Part shown: positions 10,719-28,185 of the stretch, piece after piece
Position numbering within the stretch: position 1 is the stretch's first letter
Layout: every line of letters begins with the position of its first letter
Assembly (NCBI GenBank): GCA_905234575.1
Contig: CAJOIG010000006.1
Coordinates: 1-32,362, forward strand
Reading direction: 5' to 3'
Source: an uncultured Oscillospiraceae bacterium
GTDB lineage: Bacteria > Bacillota > Clostridia > Oscillospirales > Oscillospiraceae
DNA: 32,362 nucleotides
Position numbers and translations under genes: made by a program
The notes under the pieces: generated by a model
The model's database searches: none
What the model was told of the DNA's origin: nothing
Seen by the model: the letters and a program-made list of their open reading frames with translations, nothing else

Positions 10719-11531
10719 ATGAAAAAGCTCATCGCTCTTGCTTTGGCCCTTGTGATGGTCCTGGCCCTGACCGCCTGCGGCGGCTCGGCCCCCGCCAAGA
10801 CCGACGCTCCCGCCGCGGAGGAGCGCACGTCCTTCATCATGGGCATCGACCCCGAGTATCCCCCCTTCAGCTATCTCGGCGACGACGGCGGCTACACCGG
10901 CTTCGACGTGGAGATCTGCCAGGCCGCCTGCGACTATCTCGGCTGGGAGATGGAGATCTTCGGCGTGAACTGGGACGAGAAGCTCGTCCAGCTCGATTCC
11001 ATGGAGTGCGACTGCGTCTGGTCCGGCATGACCATCCTCGACTCCATGAAGGAGGCCGGGTATGTGATCTCCGCCCCCTACTACGACAACACCCAGGTCC
11101 TCGTGGTCAAGGAGGACAGCGGCATCGCCTCCTCCGCGGATCTGGCCGGAAAGCTGGTGGCCGTGCAGCTCGGCACCTCCGGCGAGGCGCTCCTGAACGG
11201 CGACCTGGCCGAGCTCGCCGCCTCCTTCGGAGAGGTCATCACCTGCGACAGCTTCCTCAAGTGCTTCACGGAGCTTGCCGGCAACTCCGTGGACGCGGTG
11301 TTCGTGGACCTGCCCGTGGCGGCGAGCTACTGCGCCGAGCACGACGGCCTTCGCATCATCGACGAATCCCTCGGCGCGGAGCAGTACGGCATCGCCTTCC
11401 GCTCCGGCGACCAGGCACTCTGCGACGAGATCGAGGGCGCCGTGGCCGCGCTGGTGGAAAACGGCACGTATGCCGAGATCGCGGCGAAATATCCCGACAT
11501 CGTGAACAACCTCCTGTTCCTGAGCGAGTAA
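10719..11531 (+). CDS. Amino acid ABC transporter substrate-binding lipoprotein (SBP_bac_3 family)
   Basis: Lipobox LTACGGS; SFIMGIDPEYPPFSYLGDDGGYTGFDVEICQAACDYLGWEMEI; SBP_bac_3 organisation ending QYGIAFRSGDQALCDEIEGAVAALVENGTYAEI. Confidence 0.95.
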   Translation: MKKLIALALALVMVLALTACGGSAPAKTDAPAAEERTSFIMGIDPEYPPFSYLGDDGGYTGFDVEICQAACDYLGWEMEIFGVNWDEKLVQLDSMECDCVWSGMTILDSMKEAGYVISAPYYDNTQVLVVKEDSGIASSADLAGKLVAVQLGTSGEALLNGDLAELAASFGEVITCDSFLKCFTELAGNSVDAVFVDLPVAASYCAEHDGLRIIDESLGAEQYGIAFRSGDQALCDEIEGAVAALVENGTYAEIAAKYPDIVNNLLFLSE

Positions 11532-11621: not shown

Positions 11622-12269
11622 ATGACCTTGATGACCATGATCGTCAAGATGAGCGAGGGTCTCGGCAAGACCTGCGCCATCTTTTTCCTGACGCTGCTGT
11701 TCTCTCTCCCGCTGGGCATGCTCGTGGCCCTGCTGCGGATGAGCAGGAACCGGATCGTCTCCGCCGTCACGCGGTTTTTCATCACCGTGCTGCGCGGCAC
11801 GCCGCTGATGCTCCAGCTCCTGGCCGTGACCTACGGTCCCTATTACCTCTTCGGCGCAAACGTGGCCCGCAACAAGCTCATCCCCGTCGTGATCGCGTTT
11901 GCCATCAACTACGCCGCCTATTTCGCCGAGATCTACCGCGGCGGCATCGAGTCGATCCCCGTCGGACAGTATGAGGCGGCGGAGGTCCTGGGCTACACCC
12001 GGATGCAGACCTTTCTGCGGATCATCCTGCCCCAGGTGGTCAAGCGCATCATGCCCAGCGTGACGAACGAGGTCGTGACCCTCGTAAAAGACACGTCCAT
12101 GGCCTTCACCGTCTCCTACCAGGAGATGTTCACCATCGGCAAGCAGATCGCGAACTCCCAGACGAGCTTCCTGCCCTTCGTGGTCGCCGGCGTGTTCTAC
12201 TACGTCTTCAACTTCATCGTGGACCGTGTGATGGGCCGGATCGAAAAGCGGCTCGACTACTACAAGTAA
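11622..12269 (+). CDS. Amino acid ABC transporter permease (His/Glu/Gln/Arg type)
   Basis: [57 protein letters not shown]: polar amino-acid permease motifs. Confidence 0.95.
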
Positions 12270-12282
12270 GGAGGACGCGAAA

Positions 12283-13059
12283 ATGACCGAGATCCCCCAA
12301 AACGGCGCGCCCTCCGCGCCCATCCTGGAGATCCGCGGCCTGCGGAAATCCTTCGGCGACCTCTCCGTGCTGAAGGACATCTCCCTCTCCGTGGAGCCGG
12401 GCAATGTCGTGTCCGTCATCGGCCCCTCCGGCTCCGGCAAATCTACCCTGCTGCGCTGCGCCTCCTTCCTGGAGACCGCCGACGGCGGGGACATCCTCTA
12501 CGACGGACAGTACGCCATGAAGGACGGCGTCTATGCCTCCAAGGCGGAGCTGAATCATTGCCGGACCCGCTTTGGCATGGTGTTCCAGAACTTCAACCTC
12601 TTCCCCCACTATTCGGTCCTGCGGAACGTCTCCGAGCCGCCGCTCCTCCACGGGGAGGACAAGGAGGAGGTCCGGGAGCGGGCAATGTCCCTCCTCAAAA
12701 AAATGGGGCTCGAAGGCAAGGAGAACGCCTATCCCTGCCAGCTCTCGGGCGGACAGCAGCAGCGCGTCGCCATCGCCCGGGCCCTGGCCCTCCGGCCCGA
12801 GATCCTCTTTTTCGACGAGCCCACCTCCGCCCTCGACCCGGAGCTCACCGGCGAGGTGCTGAAGGTCATCCGCCAGCTTGCGGAGGACCGGATGACCATG
12901 GTGGTCGTCACCCACGAGATGCCCTTCGCCCGGGCGGTATCGAACCGCGTCATCTTCATGGACAAGGGCGTCATCGTCGAGCAGGGCCACCCAGAGGACG
13001 TCTTCGGCGCGCCGACGCAGGAACGCACGAAGCAGTTTCTGCGGAACTACCAGTCATGA
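12283..13059 (+). CDS. Amino acid ABC transporter ATP-binding protein
   Basis: Walker [50 protein letters not shown]-loop [11 protein letters not shown]. Confidence 0.96.
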
Positions 13060-19880: not shown

Positions 19881-21901
19881 ATGAGAAAGGAACGCAAGCT
19901 CTTATCCCTCCTGCTGGTCCTCGCGCTGGCCGCGGGACTTCTCGGCGGCGGCGCTTTCGCCTCGGGCGATCCCGGCACGTCCGCCGCGCCCGGCGGGGCC
20001 TCCGGCGAGGCGTCCGGCGGCGGCGCAAACGAGACCGAGACCGTCACCCTGATTCCCGAGGAGATGGACGAGCTCCTCATCGGCCCCGAGGGCTACGAGT
20101 TCACCACCGACCTCACCGTCGGGCATCTCGAGCTCGATCCCGCGGCCGAGATCTCCTCCGAATATCCCATCGTCGTGCTTTTCGGCGAGTCGGACACCGT
20201 GAAAAACGGCGACGTGATCGGGAACGTCCAGTTCGTCTCCGACTACGACGAGATCATCGCAATCGTCCACACGAACGACGTGCACGGCCACATCGACGTG
20301 GAGCCCTACGTCAAGGGCCTCGCAGACGAGCTGAAGGCCAGCGGCAAATACAGCCTGGTCCTCACCGTCTCCGCGGGCGACATCTACGGCGGCGGCGAGG
20401 CGGTCGCCGGCTCCTACAACGGCGAGTTCATCCCCGCCATCATGGACGGCGTCTACGACGTCATCGCCCCGGGCAACAACGACTTCGGCTCCACCGGCGT
20501 CGTGCGCCACAACGTCCTGCTCTCCTCGCTCTATGAGCACACCCAGACCCTCTGCGCCAACATCGGCGCGCGGGATACCGGCCTTGCCGTGGAGGAGTAC
20601 GCCGCGGGTTATGAGCCCATCCTCGGCGACGAGCTCTTCGACGAGCTCTATGACAAGGTCACCACCGGCGCGGACGGGAGCCTCGACCTGAGCGCGCTGG
20701 ACCTCACAGATCCCGCTCCGGGCGGGGCGGTCTATCCCCACACCACGACCTTCGAGACAGGGACCGGCACCGTCGTCGGCCTCTTCGGCCTGACCACCAG
20801 CGGCGGCGCCATCGACGTGGACGTGGACGGCCTCGGCTCCATCGCGAGCGCCCAGGCCCGGACGGCGCGGACGTCGTGATCGGCGTCGGCCACACCGGCT
20901 GGCTCGGCGAGGGCGCGACCACCGCCTCCTCGAATGACACGAACTCCTGGCAGCTCGCGGACAAGGTCACGGGCCTCGACGCCTTTGTGGACGGTCACAC
21001 TCACTCCATCATCAACAAGGGCCAGGGCGTGCTGGTCGGCTCCGATCCCACCTACGTGAACCAGGCGGAGAGCTTCGGCTACTGCATCGGCGTCATGGAG
21101 CTATACGTCAAGGACGGCAGGGTCCTCGCAAAGCACGGCGAGGTCATCCACGACATGAGCGGCATCACACCCGACGCAGAGGTCCAGGCCCTCGTCGATC
21201 TGGCCGAGGCCCGGGTCAAGGAGGACTTCGGCAAGCCCATCGCCCACACCGACTACTTCCTGAACGGCGAGCGCATGTCCGCCGGCAACGAGGGCGGCAC
21301 CGTCCGCGGCAACGAGACGAACCTAGGCGACCTCATGACGGACGTCATCCGCGCCGCCGCCTCGGAGAAGATGGGCGTGGACTATGACTTCGCCGCCTAT
21401 CCCGGCTTCTGGCTGCGCTCCTCCATCGAGGCGGGGGACATCACCCTCGAGAGCATCCAGGGCGTGTTCGCAAACCCGACGGTCCTCTACTACGACACCT
21501 ACACCGCCGACCAGGTCGTGAGCATGGTCACCCGGGGCCTCAACAGCGTCTATCCCGAGAAGGAGGACACGACCTTCACCCAGTATTCGGGTCTCACCGT
21601 GACCTACACGAACACCGCCGGCAAGGGCACGCCGCTGACGATCACCGTGGGCGACACCCTCGTCTACGACGCGGCGAACGGCGGCATCCAGGTGGGCGCG
21701 GACTGGACCTGCGAGGGCGTTCTCACCATGTCCGGCGGCGAGATCGACAGCTACACCGGCGACATGGCGAACTGGATCTGCCACGACAAGACCGAGGTCC
21801 AGGCCCTGGTGGGCGACTGGTTCCAGAGCCACACCGCCGACGACTACACGATCTTCCCGAACACCGTGGCTCCCGACGGCCGCATCGTGGCGGTCGGCTG
21901 A
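19881..21901 (+). pseudogene. Secreted 5'-nucleotidase/2',3'-cyclic phosphodiesterase-like protein (UshA family), frameshift near 20851-20862
   Basis: Signal peptide; IIAIVHTNDVHGHID, SAGDIYGGGEA, APGNNDFGSTG metallophosphatase motifs; C-terminal 5'-nucleotidase domain NETNLGDLMTDVIRAAA...ANPTVLYYDTYTADQV in ORF 20876-21901. Two ORFs together form one protein after a 1-nt correction. Confidence 0.85.
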
Positions 21902-22996: not shown

Positions 22997-23857
22997 ATGA
23001 AACGCTTCCCTTCCCTGCTTCTTTTGCCGATCGCCGCTCTTGCGGCGGTGTTTTTGGCTGCCTGCGGCTCCGCGTCTCCGGCCGCCGCGAAGTCCGCGGT
23101 CGAGGCCGCGCCGATCGCCGTGCGCGCCGCCATAAAGGCGCATCCTCTGCCAACGCCGACGGCCGCGCCCGCATCCACGCCGACGCCCGCGCCGACGGCA
23201 CCGTCCAAGCCGGACCCCGCGCTCCGGCCGACCCCCGCGCCGACGCCCGTTCCCACGCCGGAGCCTACGCCCGCGCCGGTCCCGCCGGATCTGCCGGAGC
23301 CGCCCGAGCCCGCGCCGGAGGGACACTTCGCGAGCACGGCCTTCCTGGGGAATTCCCTCGTGAACGGCCTGTCGCTCTACGACTACGGCGGCGTCCTCGC
23401 GGGCGCGGATTTCTACACGGAAAACAGCATGACCGTCCTCGGGATCGGCCCCAAGGCCGCCCAGCTGGAGGGAAAGAGCTATGACCGCGTCTACATCGGC
23501 CTCGGCATGAACGAGCTCGCCTATGACCGGGAGACCATCCGCGCCCGGTTTGCGGAGCTCATCGCGACCCTGCGGGCCCAGGACCCGGACCGGGTCATCT
23601 GCCTCATGGCCGTGACGCCCGTGAGCCGGAACAAGTCCGCCGGGAGCTCCAGCGTCAACATCGACCTCGTGCGCTCCTTCAACGAGATGCTGTACGACGT
23701 CGCCGCGGCCGAGGGCGTCTGGTATCTCGACGTATACGCCGCTCTGGCGGACGACGAGGGCTATCTCCCCGCGGACGTGACCCCGGACGGCGTGCATTTC
23801 AGCCCATCGTATTACGAGCGCTGGCTCGATCTTCTGAAAACGCGGTATCTTCCGTAA
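22997..23857 (+). CDS. SGNH/GDSL-hydrolase-like lipoprotein with Pro/Thr-rich linker
   Basis: Lipobox FLAACGS; linker PTPTAAPASTPTPAPTAPSKPDPALRPTPAPTPVPTPEPTPAP; TAFLGNSLVNGLSLYDYG, YIGLGMNELAYD, DGVHFSPSYYERW blocks. Confidence 0.85.
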   Translation: MKRFPSLLLLPIAALAAVFLAACGSASPAAAKSAVEAAPIAVRAAIKAHPLPTPTAAPASTPTPAPTAPSKPDPALRPTPAPTPVPTPEPTPAPVPPDLPEPPEPAPEGHFASTAFLGNSLVNGLSLYDYGGVLAGADFYTENSMTVLGIGPKAAQLEGKSYDRVYIGLGMNELAYDRETIRARFAELIATLRAQDPDRVICLMAVTPVSRNKSAGSSSVNIDLVRSFNEMLYDVAAAEGVWYLDVYAALADDEGYLPADVTPDGVHFSPSYYERWLDLLKTRYLP

Positions 23858-23879
23858 TCATTGAAAAGAGGTAAACGAC

Positions 23880-24338
23880 ATGAAAAAACTGCTGAGCCTG
23901 CTCCTTGCGCTTCTGACCCTCGCAAGCCTTGCCGCCTGCGGCGGCGGCGCCAAGACCGTGGACATCGACGCGCTGGCGGCGGAACTGACCGCGAGCGGCG
24001 CCTTTTCGGACATCCTCAACCCGCCCGCCGAGGGCGTGGCCGCCCGCCTGTACGACCTGCCGGAGGGCACGGCGAAGAAGACGGTCCTTTACGTCAGCAC
24101 CGGCGCAACCGCGGAGGAGATCTTCCTCGCGGAGGCCGCCGACAGCGCCGCGGCCGGCGCCCTCAAGACCGCCTGCCAGAACCGCATCGAGGCACAGAAG
24201 CAGGCCTTCGTGAACTATGCGCCCGAAGAGGTGCAGAAGCTCGACAACGCCGTCCTCGTAACCGCCGGGAACTACGTCATCCTGGTCGTGGCCTCGGACG
24301 CCGCAGCTGCCAAGGCCGTCGTGGACAAGTACGCCTGA
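23880..24338 (+). CDS. DUF4358-like lipoprotein
   Basis: MKKLLSLLLALLTLASLAACGGG lipobox; DIDALAAELTASGAFSDILNPPAEGVAARLYDLPEG...AQKQAFVNYAPEEVQKLDNAVLVTAGNYVILVVASDAAAAKAVVDKY resembles DUF4358. Confidence 0.75.
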   Translation: MKKLLSLLLALLTLASLAACGGGAKTVDIDALAAELTASGAFSDILNPPAEGVAARLYDLPEGTAKKTVLYVSTGATAEEIFLAEAADSAAAGALKTACQNRIEAQKQAFVNYAPEEVQKLDNAVLVTAGNYVILVVASDAAAAKAVVDKYA

Positions 24339-24342
24339 TCCC

Positions 24343-25134
24343 ATGAGATTCCGGCGTCTTGCGCTGTGCGCGCTCCTGTGCGCGGCGCTCCTTCTGCCCT
24401 GCACCGCCTGCGGCGAGAGCAGCGGCATGCGGGTCATCGATACCTACAGCGCCGAGGGCAGCTACGTCATCGCCTTCCGCGAGGGGGACAAGCTCTGCGA
24501 GCTGGCCTCCGCCGCCATGGCGGAGCTCGTGGCGAACGGGTCCCTCCGCTCCGCCTCCTACCGCTGGTTCGGCGAGGACCTGGTCAGCGCCAAAGGCCAG
24601 GGCGGCGAGATGGACGAGCTCTGGGCCGAGGTCCCGGACCGGACCATCACCGTCGGCATCGACGTCACGAACATGCCCATGAGCTACGAGACGGCCGAGG
24701 GCTATCTCGGCTTCGACGTGGACGTGGCGAACTACATCTGCGGCTATCTCGGCTGGCGCATGGCGATCTATCCCATCGACCCGGCGAACGTGGATGTGGA
24801 GCTGCAGAGCGGCAACATCGACATGGCCATGGGCATCCCCGAGAGCGACGCGAAGAGCGGCTTCAGCTACTCTCCGGCGTACCTCACGAGCCGGTATGTG
24901 CTGGTGGCCCGTGTGAACGGGCGCGTCCGGGACCGCTCGGCCCTCAAGGGCAAGAACCTCGGCGTCACCGTGACCGACCTCGACATTCTGATGCAGGACC
25001 AGAAATTCGTAAACTCCCTCGGCAGCGTCACCTATCAGACCGACACCGACGGGCTGTTCCGGGCCCTGCTTTTGGGGGACGTGGACGGCATCCTCGTCTC
25101 CAGCGTCGCCGCGGCGTACTACATGAAGACCTGA
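24343..25134 (+). CDS. Exported SBP_bac_3-type protein with apparent circular permutation
   Basis: N-terminal residues 29-79 (MRVIDTYSAEGSYVIAFREGDKLCELASAAMAELVANGSLRSASYRWFGED) look like the C-terminal end of an SBP_bac_3 domain; the remainder starts like a normal SBP N-terminus (ITVGIDVTNMPMSYETAEGYLGFDVDVANYICGYLGW) and stops at VDGILVSSVAAAYYMKT. Confidence 0.85.
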   Translation: MRFRRLALCALLCAALLLPCTACGESSGMRVIDTYSAEGSYVIAFREGDKLCELASAAMAELVANGSLRSASYRWFGEDLVSAKGQGGEMDELWAEVPDRTITVGIDVTNMPMSYETAEGYLGFDVDVANYICGYLGWRMAIYPIDPANVDVELQSGNIDMAMGIPESDAKSGFSYSPAYLTSRYVLVARVNGRVRDRSALKGKNLGVTVTDLDILMQDQKFVNSLGSVTYQTDTDGLFRALLLGDVDGILVSSVAAAYYMKT

Positions 25135-25208: not shown

Positions 25209-26888
25209 TCAGTAAACGACCACCCTTGTGCCCGAGGGGATGTTCTGGTAGATCCAGTAGGCGTTGTCGTACGCGAGGCGGACGCAGCCGTGGGACAGCG
25301 GCAGGCCGAGGCGTCCGTCCTGGAGCGAGCCGTCGGCGTTGTAGGTCACGGAATGGAACAGGTAATTGCCGTAAAACTGCGTGTACCAGAAGCACAGGGA
25401 GCCGTAGGAATAGAAGGAATATCCCCGCGCCTTCACCGTGAAGGAGCCCGTGACCGTGGGCGAGCTCGCCGCGCCCGGCGTGCAGTCCCAGAAAAACTGC
25501 AGCGCCCAGCCGCCGCCGTCCCGATAGAACACGCCGGTCTTGCAGGCGGCGGTATCCACGAGGATCATCCAGTCCGTGGCGCTGTCATACCAGGCCGTCG
25601 CCTCCTGCATATAGCGCCTTGCGCCGTCCGCCGCCGAGCCGTCGGAGCGGACCTCCCAGCCGTCGATCGTCACATCGTGGGCGTTGGAGCCCCGGGGACC
25701 GGCGTTTTCCTCCGCGCCGGTGTAGAAGTAATAGTACGCGCCGCCGAGGTACTGCCAGCCCGTGCGCATCTTCCCGTCGCTGCCGAAGTAGTACCAGTAG
25801 CCGTCGATCACCCGCCAGCCCTTTTGCATGGTGGCGTCCTCCGGGCGCATGTAGTAGGTTTCGCCGTCCCGGTCGGCCCAGCCGCGGTGTACGATGCCGG
25901 TGTCCGGCTCGAAGTAGTACCAGTAGCCGTCATTGCAGAAGCACCAGCCCGTGGTCATGACGCCGTTCGGGCCGAAATAGTACCACAGCCCGTCGATCTT
26001 GCGCCAGCCCTTCTGCATGGTGCCGTCTTCCGGACGCATGTAGTAGGTCTTCCCGTCCGAGGTAGCCCAGCCCCGGTGGACGACGCCGGTATCGGGCTCG
26101 AAATAGTACCAGTAGCCGTCGTTGGCCTGGACCCAGCCCGTGGCCATGACGCCGTCCGAGAGGAAGTAGTACCACAGGCCGTCCAGATACAGCCAGCCCG
26201 TCCGGGCGATGGCGTTCGATGGGTTGAAGTAGTACTTCCGGCCGTCTACCTCCTGCCAGCCCCGGTGGACGACGCCGGTGTCGGGCTCGAAGTAGTAAAG
26301 GTCGCCCCAGATGTTCGTCAGGCCGGAGGCGGCCGTGCCGTCAGAGTTGAAATAGTACCACAGCCCGCCGGTGTAGAGCCAACCGGTGCGCATGGTGGCG
26401 TCGGAGGGGTTGAAGTAGTAGAGCCTGCCGTCGATCTCCTGGAAGCCGCGGTGCACGACGCCGGTGTCCGGCTCAAAGTAGTAGTAGTTCCAGAGGGGCT
26501 TGCACAGGCCGGTGGCAAGGGTCCCGTCGGACCAGAAGTAGTACCACAGCCCGTCCAGATACAGCCATCCGGTATGCTTCGCGCCGGTGCTGGGATCGAT
26601 GTAGTAACGGGAACCGTCGGCATCCGTGACGAAGGCCGATTCCTCGCCGTCTCCGTCCACCCAGGGATAGACCGGCTCCTCCGCGGGGGCCTCCGCCGCG
26701 GCTTCCGACGGCTCGGAAGCGTATGCCGAGGTAGTCTCCTCGGCCGGGAGCGTATCCTCTTCGGCGACCGCCTCCGAGGCAACGGAGACGTCCTCCTCCC
26801 CGTCGGCCGCGAACGCCGGGACCGCCGCCAGGATCACCGCGGCGAGAAGAAGCGCCGTGACCCGTCGTGTCCATTCAAGAAATCTCAT
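25209..26888 (-). CDS. Exported L,D-transpeptidase (YkuD) with N-terminal cell-wall-binding repeats
   Basis: Signal peptide MRFLEWTRRVTALLLAAVILAAVPAFA; GWxxxDGxWYYF-type repeats; C-terminal catalytic motif LGLPLSHGCVRLAYDNAYWIYQN. RBS GGAAGGAG before the ATG at 26888; upstream ORF extension rejected. Confidence 0.93.
   Translation of the reverse strand: MRFLEWTRRVTALLLAAVILAAVPAFAADGEEDVSVASEAVAEEDTLPAEETTSAYASEPSEAAAEAPAEEPVYPWVDGDGEESAFVTDADGSRYYIDPSTGAKHTGWLYLDGLWYYFWSDGTLATGLCKPLWNYYYFEPDTGVVHRGFQEIDGRLYYFNPSDATMRTGWLYTGGLWYYFNSDGTAASGLTNIWGDLYYFEPDTGVVHRGWQEVDGRKYYFNPSNAIARTGWLYLDGLWYYFLSDGVMATGWVQANDGYWYYFEPDTGVVHRGWATSDGKTYYMRPEDGTMQKGWRKIDGLWYYFGPNGVMTTGWCFCNDGYWYYFEPDTGIVHRGWADRDGETYYMRPEDATMQKGWRVIDGYWYYFGSDGKMRTGWQYLGGAYYYFYTGAEENAGPRGSNAHDVTIDGWEVRSDGSAADGARRYMQEATAWYDSATDWMILVDTAACKTGVFYRDGGGWALQFFWDCTPGAASSPTVTGSFTVKARGYSFYSYGSLCFWYTQFYGNYLFHSVTYNADGSLQDGRLGLPLSHGCVRLAYDNAYWIYQNIPSGTRVVVY
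25730..26620 (-). repeat. Cell-wall-binding repeats arranged as about four ~62-aa super-repeats
   Basis: YYFEPDTG[VI]VHRG occurs four times at about 183-190 bp spacing, each followed by GWxxxxGxWYYFxxxGxxxTG units. Confidence 0.85.
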
Positions 26889-26927
26889 ATCCTCACTCCT
26901 TCCAACGTTTGGTTCTGTCTGTATTCC

Positions 26928-26957
26928 ATTGTACACAGCCGCGCCGCCCCGTGTCAA
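26928..26957 (-). promoter_or_regulatory. Candidate sigma-A promoter for the L,D-transpeptidase gene
   Basis: Minus strand TTGACA (26952-26957) - 18 nt - TACAAT (26928-26933). Confidence 0.65.
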
Positions 26958-26973
26958 GGAAAACGGGGTCCGG

Positions 26974-28185
26974 TCATGTCCGGTCACGCCGACGGTACAG
27001 GCTCTGGATCCCCAGCACGGAAAACGCCGCGCACAGCGCGAAGAACAGGTACGCCGGGACGTAGCTCCCGCCAAAGCGGTCCGCCAGAAGCCCCGGCAGC
27101 GTGGAGAACAGCAGGCCGCCCGCAGCATAGCCCACCTGGAAGCGGCGGACGGCGGCGTCATAGGTCTCCGGCGTGCTCAGGTCCCCGGCCCAGGTCGTGA
27201 TCCCGACGGTCCCGAGGGCGAGGCCCGGACCGTACAGCGCCATGGCGAGCAGGAGCAGCGTGGTGCTCCCCGCGGTGAAACAGCTCAGCAGCAGCCCCGC
27301 CAGGAGCAGAACGCCGAACAGCCAGTTCGTCCGCACCGGTCCGAGGCGTTCCTCCAGCACGCCGTAGGCGGACTTGCCCAGCATGAGCGTAACGCCGGAA
27401 AATGTGACGGCGAGGGCGGTGGTGTGGGCGGAGAAACCCTCACCCCGGGTCAGGACGGTGATGTGGCTGTACCCGACGCTCGTGAAGGCCCCGACGCAGA
27501 GGAGGATCGGCACGAGCAGCAGCCAGTCCCGCCGCGCGAGCTCCCGGCCGCCCGCCGTAAAGTCCTCGTGATTCACCCGATCCCAGCTCCCGTAGGGCTC
27601 CATGCCCCGGTCCGCCGGGCGGCTGCGGATGAGCAGGACCGCTGCCAGCACGAGCGCCGCGATGAAGAAACCCTCCGCCCGGAAGGCAAAGCGCAGGCCG
27701 CGCGTCTCGATGATCCGCGTCAGAAGCGACGGGATGCCGAGCGTGGACAGCCCCGTCACCGCGGAACAGAGCCCCAGTGCAAGCGTGCGCTTTTCGATGA
27801 ACCACCGCTCCATGAGCATGGCCACGGGAATCATCGTCCCGACGCCGTAGCCGAGGCCGACCACCGCCGCGGCCAGCGCGCAGGCAGGAAAGCCGGACGC
27901 GGCCCCGAACAGGAAAAAGCCCGCCGTCGTCAGAGCACCTGCGATCCCCATGCCCGCGCGCAGGGACAGACGCCGGTAATACGGGCCGGACAGCAGCATC
28001 GACACGAAGCTCGTCAGGCTCCGCACCGTCACAAGCAGGGACGACTGCGCGTTCGTGAAGCCGTTCTGCGCGAGGATATAGGGCTGGAAGATCGTAAAGG
28101 CATTCACGGCGAGGCCGCTCGTGCAGAACAGGATCAGAGCGCCGCCCGCGCATACCGCCCACGCGTAATGGGGTCTGTGCTTCAT
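26974..28185 (-). CDS. MFS transporter
   Basis: Multi-TM protein MKHRPHYAWAVCAGGALILFCTSGLAVNAFTIFQPYIL..., GLGYGVGTMIPVAMLMERWF; RBS GGGAGGG upstream. Confidence 0.9.
   Translation of the reverse strand: MKHRPHYAWAVCAGGALILFCTSGLAVNAFTIFQPYILAQNGFTNAQSSLLVTVRSLTSFVSMLLSGPYYRRLSLRAGMGIAGALTTAGFFLFGAASGFPACALAAAVVGLGYGVGTMIPVAMLMERWFIEKRTLALGLCSAVTGLSTLGIPSLLTRIIETRGLRFAFRAEGFFIAALVLAAVLLIRSRPADRGMEPYGSWDRVNHEDFTAGGRELARRDWLLLVPILLCVGAFTSVGYSHITVLTRGEGFSAHTTALAVTFSGVTLMLGKSAYGVLEERLGPVRTNWLFGVLLLAGLLLSCFTAGSTTLLLLAMALYGPGLALGTVGITTWAGDLSTPETYDAAVRRFQVGYAAGGLLFSTLPGLLADRFGGSYVPAYLFFALCAAFSVLGIQSLYRRRDRT

Follow-up and report, generated by a model that had tools for sequence, protein, structure and literature searches.

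Our analysis indicates that the gene at positions 24343-25134 (+) of a contig from an uncultured Oscillospiraceae bacterium encodes a lipid-anchored substrate-binding protein (SBP) of the SBP_bac_3 (type II) family that is naturally circularly permuted, and that it is one instance of a recurrent pattern. We place the probability of this whole explanation, which has no experiment behind it, at roughly 0.85. According to this explanation, the old C-terminal segment, comprising the last strand of lobe 2, the second hinge strand, and two helices of lobe 1, would have been relocated to a position after the signal peptide. It would be tied to the old N terminus by some 20 linker residues, and the new chain ends would sit in a loop of lobe 2.

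The gene lies on a 32,362-nucleotide stretch of DNA, analyzed as a whole and called the window here, and its 263-residue product is referred to as P0001. A lipoprotein signal peptide (24343-24411, +) ends at the lipobox Cys23, which is invariant in a 37-sequence alignment. It is followed by the moved segment (residues 29-79; 24427-24579, +), reading MRVID...WFGED, which equals the canonical C terminus and holds the last strand of lobe 2, the second hinge strand, and the C-terminal helices of lobe 1. A linker of 21 residues (80-100; 24580-24642, +) then leads from the old C terminus to the old N terminus. The rest of the chain, TITVGID...AAYYMKT, consists of the canonical N-terminal part of lobe 1 through the first hinge strand (residues 101-190; 24643-24912, +) and of lobe 2 (residues 191-263; 24913-25131, +), ending after the helix that precedes the cut. 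The window also carries an unpermuted SBP_bac_3 paralogue (10719-11531, +), with an ABC permease (BPD_transp_1; 11622-12269, +) and then an ABC ATPase (12283-13059, +) downstream.

The first-pass annotation had proposed, from alignment by eye, that the block just after the signal peptide corresponds to the C-terminal end of the canonical protein and the remainder to its N terminus. Both correspondences were borne out. In BLAST, residues 101-260 of P0001 align with the N-terminal part of the window's canonical SBP and residues 17-75 with its C-terminal part, and the same swapped two-piece match recurs independently against PDB entries 3hv1 and 4ohn. Hidden Markov models (HMMs) built from canonical proteins only, leaving out the window's own, assign 35.4 bits to the C block (residues 33-79) and 87.1 bits to the N block (residues 101-259); the best of 5,000 shuffled sequences reached 7.8 and 6.0 bits, respectively. 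The Pfam profile of the family (PF00497) matches residues 102-215 with 56.7 bits, above its gathering score of 26.4, over profile positions 1-98 of 132. Because the match stops at position 98, the end of the profile is missing from the C terminus of P0001. The protein reads C-N1-N2, not the N1-N2-C segment order of the family. Together, the swapped BLAST pieces, the canonical-only HMMs, and the partial Pfam match confirm that the open reading frame encodes a permuted SBP_bac_3 protein.

Structure prediction, which had been suggested as a check, returned one confident globule: an AlphaFold2 model computed from the 37-sequence alignment has a pLDDT of 93.7 and a pTM of 0.83. In this model, residues 29-46 are a single long strand with two helices after it, the same arrangement that the hinge strand and the last helices have in normal SBPs. 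The possibility that residues 29-79 form a separate N-terminal domain is supported neither by the single globule nor by the canonical-only HMM matches. Foldseek alignments, which keep sequence order, span only ~170 columns of the 263 residues in the best SBP matches of the P0001 model (best E, 4e-10). With the model of the canonical paralogue as a control, they span about 210-239 columns, the top matches covering 223-239 columns with E values of about 1e-24 to 1e-22, and this is the contrast expected from a permutation. The position of the cut falls in lobe 2 of the canonical model, between helix 198-207 and strand 211-214. The moved piece had originally been described as the last segment of lobe 1, which holds for its lobe 1 helices but is too narrow, since the piece opens with model strand 29-46, which covers both the final lobe 2 strand and the second hinge strand. 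As the moved piece begins with the last strand of lobe 2, the new termini are predicted to lie in that lobe. A single compact fold remains a prediction only. We infer from it that the chain adopts the usual architecture of a two-lobed trap, including the closure of lobe 1, and that the lipid anchor is now on lobe 2 and no longer on lobe 1.

In HisJ and GlnH, an Asp holds the alpha-amino group of the ligand and the Arg of a T-x-x-R motif holds the carboxylate. The Asp is present in 47 of 47 canonical representatives, with the Arg exactly placed in 26 of 47, and all type B representatives (a second permuted form, described below) have the Asp. In P0001 a Ser within the lobe 2 part takes the place of this Asp; the same holds for 35 of 36 sequences of the window's genus, which mostly have no Arg at the T-x-x-R column either. 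The residue pair that would mark an amino-acid binder is therefore lacking in this genus, and amino-acid binding by its proteins is doubtful. In the absence of any ligand data, these substitutions suggest that P0001 probably either has a ligand that is not an ordinary alpha-amino acid or plays an accessory part.

Gene neighborhoods bear on the same question. In the window, the P0001 gene is not beside a permease or an ATPase. Directly upstream are genes for an SGNH/GDSL lipase and a DUF4358 lipoprotein (22997-24338, +), and a YkuD L,D-transpeptidase with several choline-binding-type repeats is convergent with it (25209-27161, -). Farther upstream, a weak Metallophos match (19881-20879, +) and a 5_nucleotid_C match (20876-21901, +) lie on reading frames with an overlap of only a few bases; these may represent a 5'-nucleotidase that has become two genes or has been broken by a frameshift. 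The usual order in the window's family, all on one strand, is canonical SBP, permease, ATPase, and permuted SBP (examples are L063, L064, L065, L067, L068, L069, and L072). In L076, L081, and L098, the first SBP slot is occupied by the permuted protein and no normal SBP was seen, and in L086 and L093 two permuted SBPs flank the permease and ATPase. Outside the window's family, almost all examples read permuted SBP, permease, ATPase. Since most permuted forms outside the window's clade have no other SBP beside their polar-amino-acid-type permease and ATPase, they most likely feed that importer; for first-slot permuted proteins, our best inference is that they would serve the adjacent amino-acid-type system. 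Within the window's clade, the permuted protein is typically a second SBP encoded after the ATPase, and the form found in the genus no longer has the residues with which the amino acid backbone is gripped. It therefore probably either hands another ligand to an importer of the same type or has turned into an accessory or sensing protein.

The latter option, that the genus protein is a surface sensor or cell-envelope accessory and no longer a transport SBP, is a serious possibility, though not the one that we favor. The usual amino-acid-anchoring residues are gone, as this option would require, and in the window and in L061 the gene stands behind SGNH and DUF4358 genes. However, this trio is not general, and in the congeners L063 and L064 the permuted gene lies directly downstream of, and is co-oriented with, the ATPase gene of an amino-acid-type operon, as it is in most genera of the family.

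Whatever its ligand, P0001 is not alone in its segment order. We surveyed relatives with models of the junction between old C terminus and old N terminus, which is common to all permutants, and used the block HMMs to define classes: canonical; type A (C-N1-N2), cut as in the window protein; type B (N2-C-N1), cut at the first hinge; type D, cut within lobe 2; and tandem (N1-N2-C-N1-N2-C). A first set of distinct sequences comprised 112 type A, 70 canonical, 22 type B, and 2 type D proteins; these were drawn with permuted queries, so the counts are not frequencies. Four of the type B sequences have 37-44 lobe 2 residues after lobe 1 and belong with type D. Individual cases illustrate the other cuts, at the first hinge with lobe 2 leading (L133 and L142) and inside lobe 2 (L143). 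An HMM of the permuted family sorts relatives into two clean classes, one matched continuously and the other reading signal, N part, C part. A search with a strict threshold gave the junction in 24 of 297 genomes of the order, including one tandem gene. With a shorter junction model, manual counting gave continuous C-to-N matches in no fewer than 75 of the 328 genomes sampled in the class. Among 32 weaker junction matches that were examined, the C block preceded N1a in all 32, one of them (L298) being a tandem. Counted by hand, the family-level groups of the phylum with permuted forms number about 36. No cuts inside lobe 1 were seen among the examples examined with the shorter junction model (A4), with which cuts in the C block or in the first 46 residues of N1 are undetectable. 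Some type B units are part of longer chains, as judged from domains read by eye: L277 and L294 are fused to a permease, and L297 and L298 combine SBP, permease, and ATPase in one polypeptide, L298 having two SBP units.

At the order level, some permuted proteins lie nearer to normal SBPs than to the permuted clade of the window. The clearest is L106, which shares 72% (N part) and 68% (C part) identity with the window's canonical SBP in swapped order, versus 27% with P0001; against another canonical protein, the values are 0.75, 0.78, and 0.78 across the three blocks. Likewise, L103 pairs with the normal L123 at 64% and 66% identity, the type B protein L181 and the normal L209 are 75% identical overall, and permuted/normal pairs reach 77%. 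For phylogenetic analysis, segments were rotated to a common order, giving about 214 columns. A tree of 106 proteins requires 18 changes of topology. A more careful tree of 70 proteins requires 20, of which at least 11 switches between canonical and permuted order are forced by well-supported branches; bootstrap trees of the same analysis give 13-15 such switches. Forcing all type A proteins into one clade costs 588 log-likelihood units (AU p 3e-58), and forcing a single clade of all permuted proteins costs 746 (AU p 2e-7); the single permuted clade is thus rejected. Switch counts do not distinguish gain from reversal. We read this as repeated switching between the normal and a permuted arrangement among the SBP_bac_3 lipoproteins of the phylum, on many occasions and with roughly three cut sites in use.

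One could suppose instead that a single ancient permutation, followed by gene conversion or reversion, produced the interleaving without any recurrence. The cut is nearly identical across all type A proteins, and trees based on about 214 columns are blind to gain versus loss, so this scenario retains some footing. We nevertheless consider it improbable: there are three different cut sites, the AU tests reject the single-clade hypotheses, and the equal similarity of L106 to its canonical relative in every block would need conversion block by block. Moreover, a reversal to the normal order is itself a permutation, so reversions would only add new events of the same kind.

With recurrence as the preferred reading, the simplest and most likely route to permuted SBPs starts with the SBP gene duplicating in tandem and in frame; trimming would come next, with copy 1 losing its front while retaining the signal peptide and copy 2 losing its back. 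This route, which the first-pass annotation had also put forward, is inferred; it has indirect support from tandem SBP genes in the order but is not proven, and no locus polymorphic for the SBP form was seen among the surveyed sequences. The two units of one tandem gene (L149), which occupies the SBP slot of a permease-ATPase operon, are 86% identical in protein and about 88% in DNA. Those of another (L118) are 90% identical in protein and about 88% in DNA; this gene is also fused to permease-like sequence. The signal peptide of L106, 57% identical to that of the window's canonical SBP, is related to that of its normal relative, which fits a copy 1 trimmed at its front but with its signal kept. 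In L097, the tail RLDLIMSDEE resembles a second copy of the strand that opens its N-terminal block and is possibly a scar of the duplication.

Conservation of the gene argues that the permuted product is a real protein. P0001 has a match over essentially its whole length in 32 of 35 genomes of the window's genus, and matches, mostly full length, in about 40 genera of the family. The residues invariant in the 37-sequence alignment, which besides Cys23 are Arg46, Asp49, Gly105, Pro112, Gly123, Leu154, and Asp160, span the C and N blocks, so both blocks are conserved. Values of dN/dS are 0.05-0.30 across the mature protein and <0.36 in each block alone, from which we conclude that the permuted gene is under purifying selection. 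Truncation as the cause of the unusual order is ruled out by this selection and by the genus-wide full-length gene, which also exclude the assembly error that had been named as a possible refutation. Although the source assembly is an 85% complete draft broken into 296 contigs and tandem SBPs do occur in the order, the idea that the gene is a tandem remnant, or an assembly or annotation artifact without a stable protein, is scarcely credible in light of the same full-length gene in those 32 genomes, the purifying selection, permuted forms on single-contig genomes (L284, L291, and L292), and a lipobox that precedes the leading block in most permuted proteins (100 of 112 for type A, 21 of 22 for type B). 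With a conserved full-length gene, both segments homologous to normal proteins, and a single confident globule, a natural circular permutation, as initially suspected, is well supported and by far the best reading of this open reading frame.

It is instructive to set P0001 beside known systems. Every segment is homologous to normal SBP_bac_3 proteins (PF00497; 3hv1, 4ohn, GlnH, and HisJ), it is likewise a lipoprotein, and its relatives have the same operon partners; it differs in its rotated segment order and, in its genus, in the absence of the usual ligand Arg and Asp. TpMglB-2 (Tp0684) of Treponema pallidum, a "Type Ic" permuted glucose-binding lipoprotein, is also a natural circular permutation of a lipid-anchored SBP; it retains ligand binding and conformational change, and its authors also connect permutation with anchoring (PMC4990184). 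Unlike P0001, it has a type I sugar-binding fold of another family with another cut, and it represents one family and not repeated events. P0001 falls outside the Type Ic proteins, as Pfam identifies SBP_bac_3 only and no type I family. Glycine-betaine-binding proteins form a permutation family detected by CPSARST (PMC2395249), again within two-lobed binding proteins; theirs is another family, recognized by structure at <24% identity, whereas SBP_bac_3 pairs reach the 77% noted above, and P0001 has no OpuAC/ProX match in Pfam at E up to 1. GlnPQ-type tandem domains (SBD1-SBD2, PDB 6h30) join SBP_bac_3 units in one chain and so contain the C-to-N junction of the permutants, but they are two complete units, whereas P0001 has one complete set of segments. 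Apart from that tandem, no rotated junction was present among the best 60 sequence matches in the PDB; predicted-structure databases were outside our scope. Similarly, no report of a permuted SBP_bac_3 protein, or of such recurrence, was found in the open-access literature, subscription papers being outside our scope. Thus, permuted SBPs were already known, while permutation within SBP_bac_3 and its recurrence have apparently not been described before.

Natural circular permutations are usually viewed as rare, single, ancient events. Our analysis leans, with some reservation, toward a broader proposition: that amino-acid-type SBPs of Clostridia-like bacteria permute repeatedly, with at least 11 switches, and, within the range of cuts that our search could pick up, only in or bordering lobe 2, moving the lipid anchor or a fused permease to a different lobe. 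If this is true, these receptors would follow permutation as a regular, selected path of evolution, giving a natural, replicated experiment in topology. A large family with close normal/permuted pairs, several cuts, and tandem intermediates makes the routes, constraints, and consequences of permutation directly comparable. It also means that many genes annotated plainly as substrate-binding proteins encode proteins whose chain topology and site of anchoring are different, a point of importance for annotation, structure modeling, permease docking, and biosensor design.
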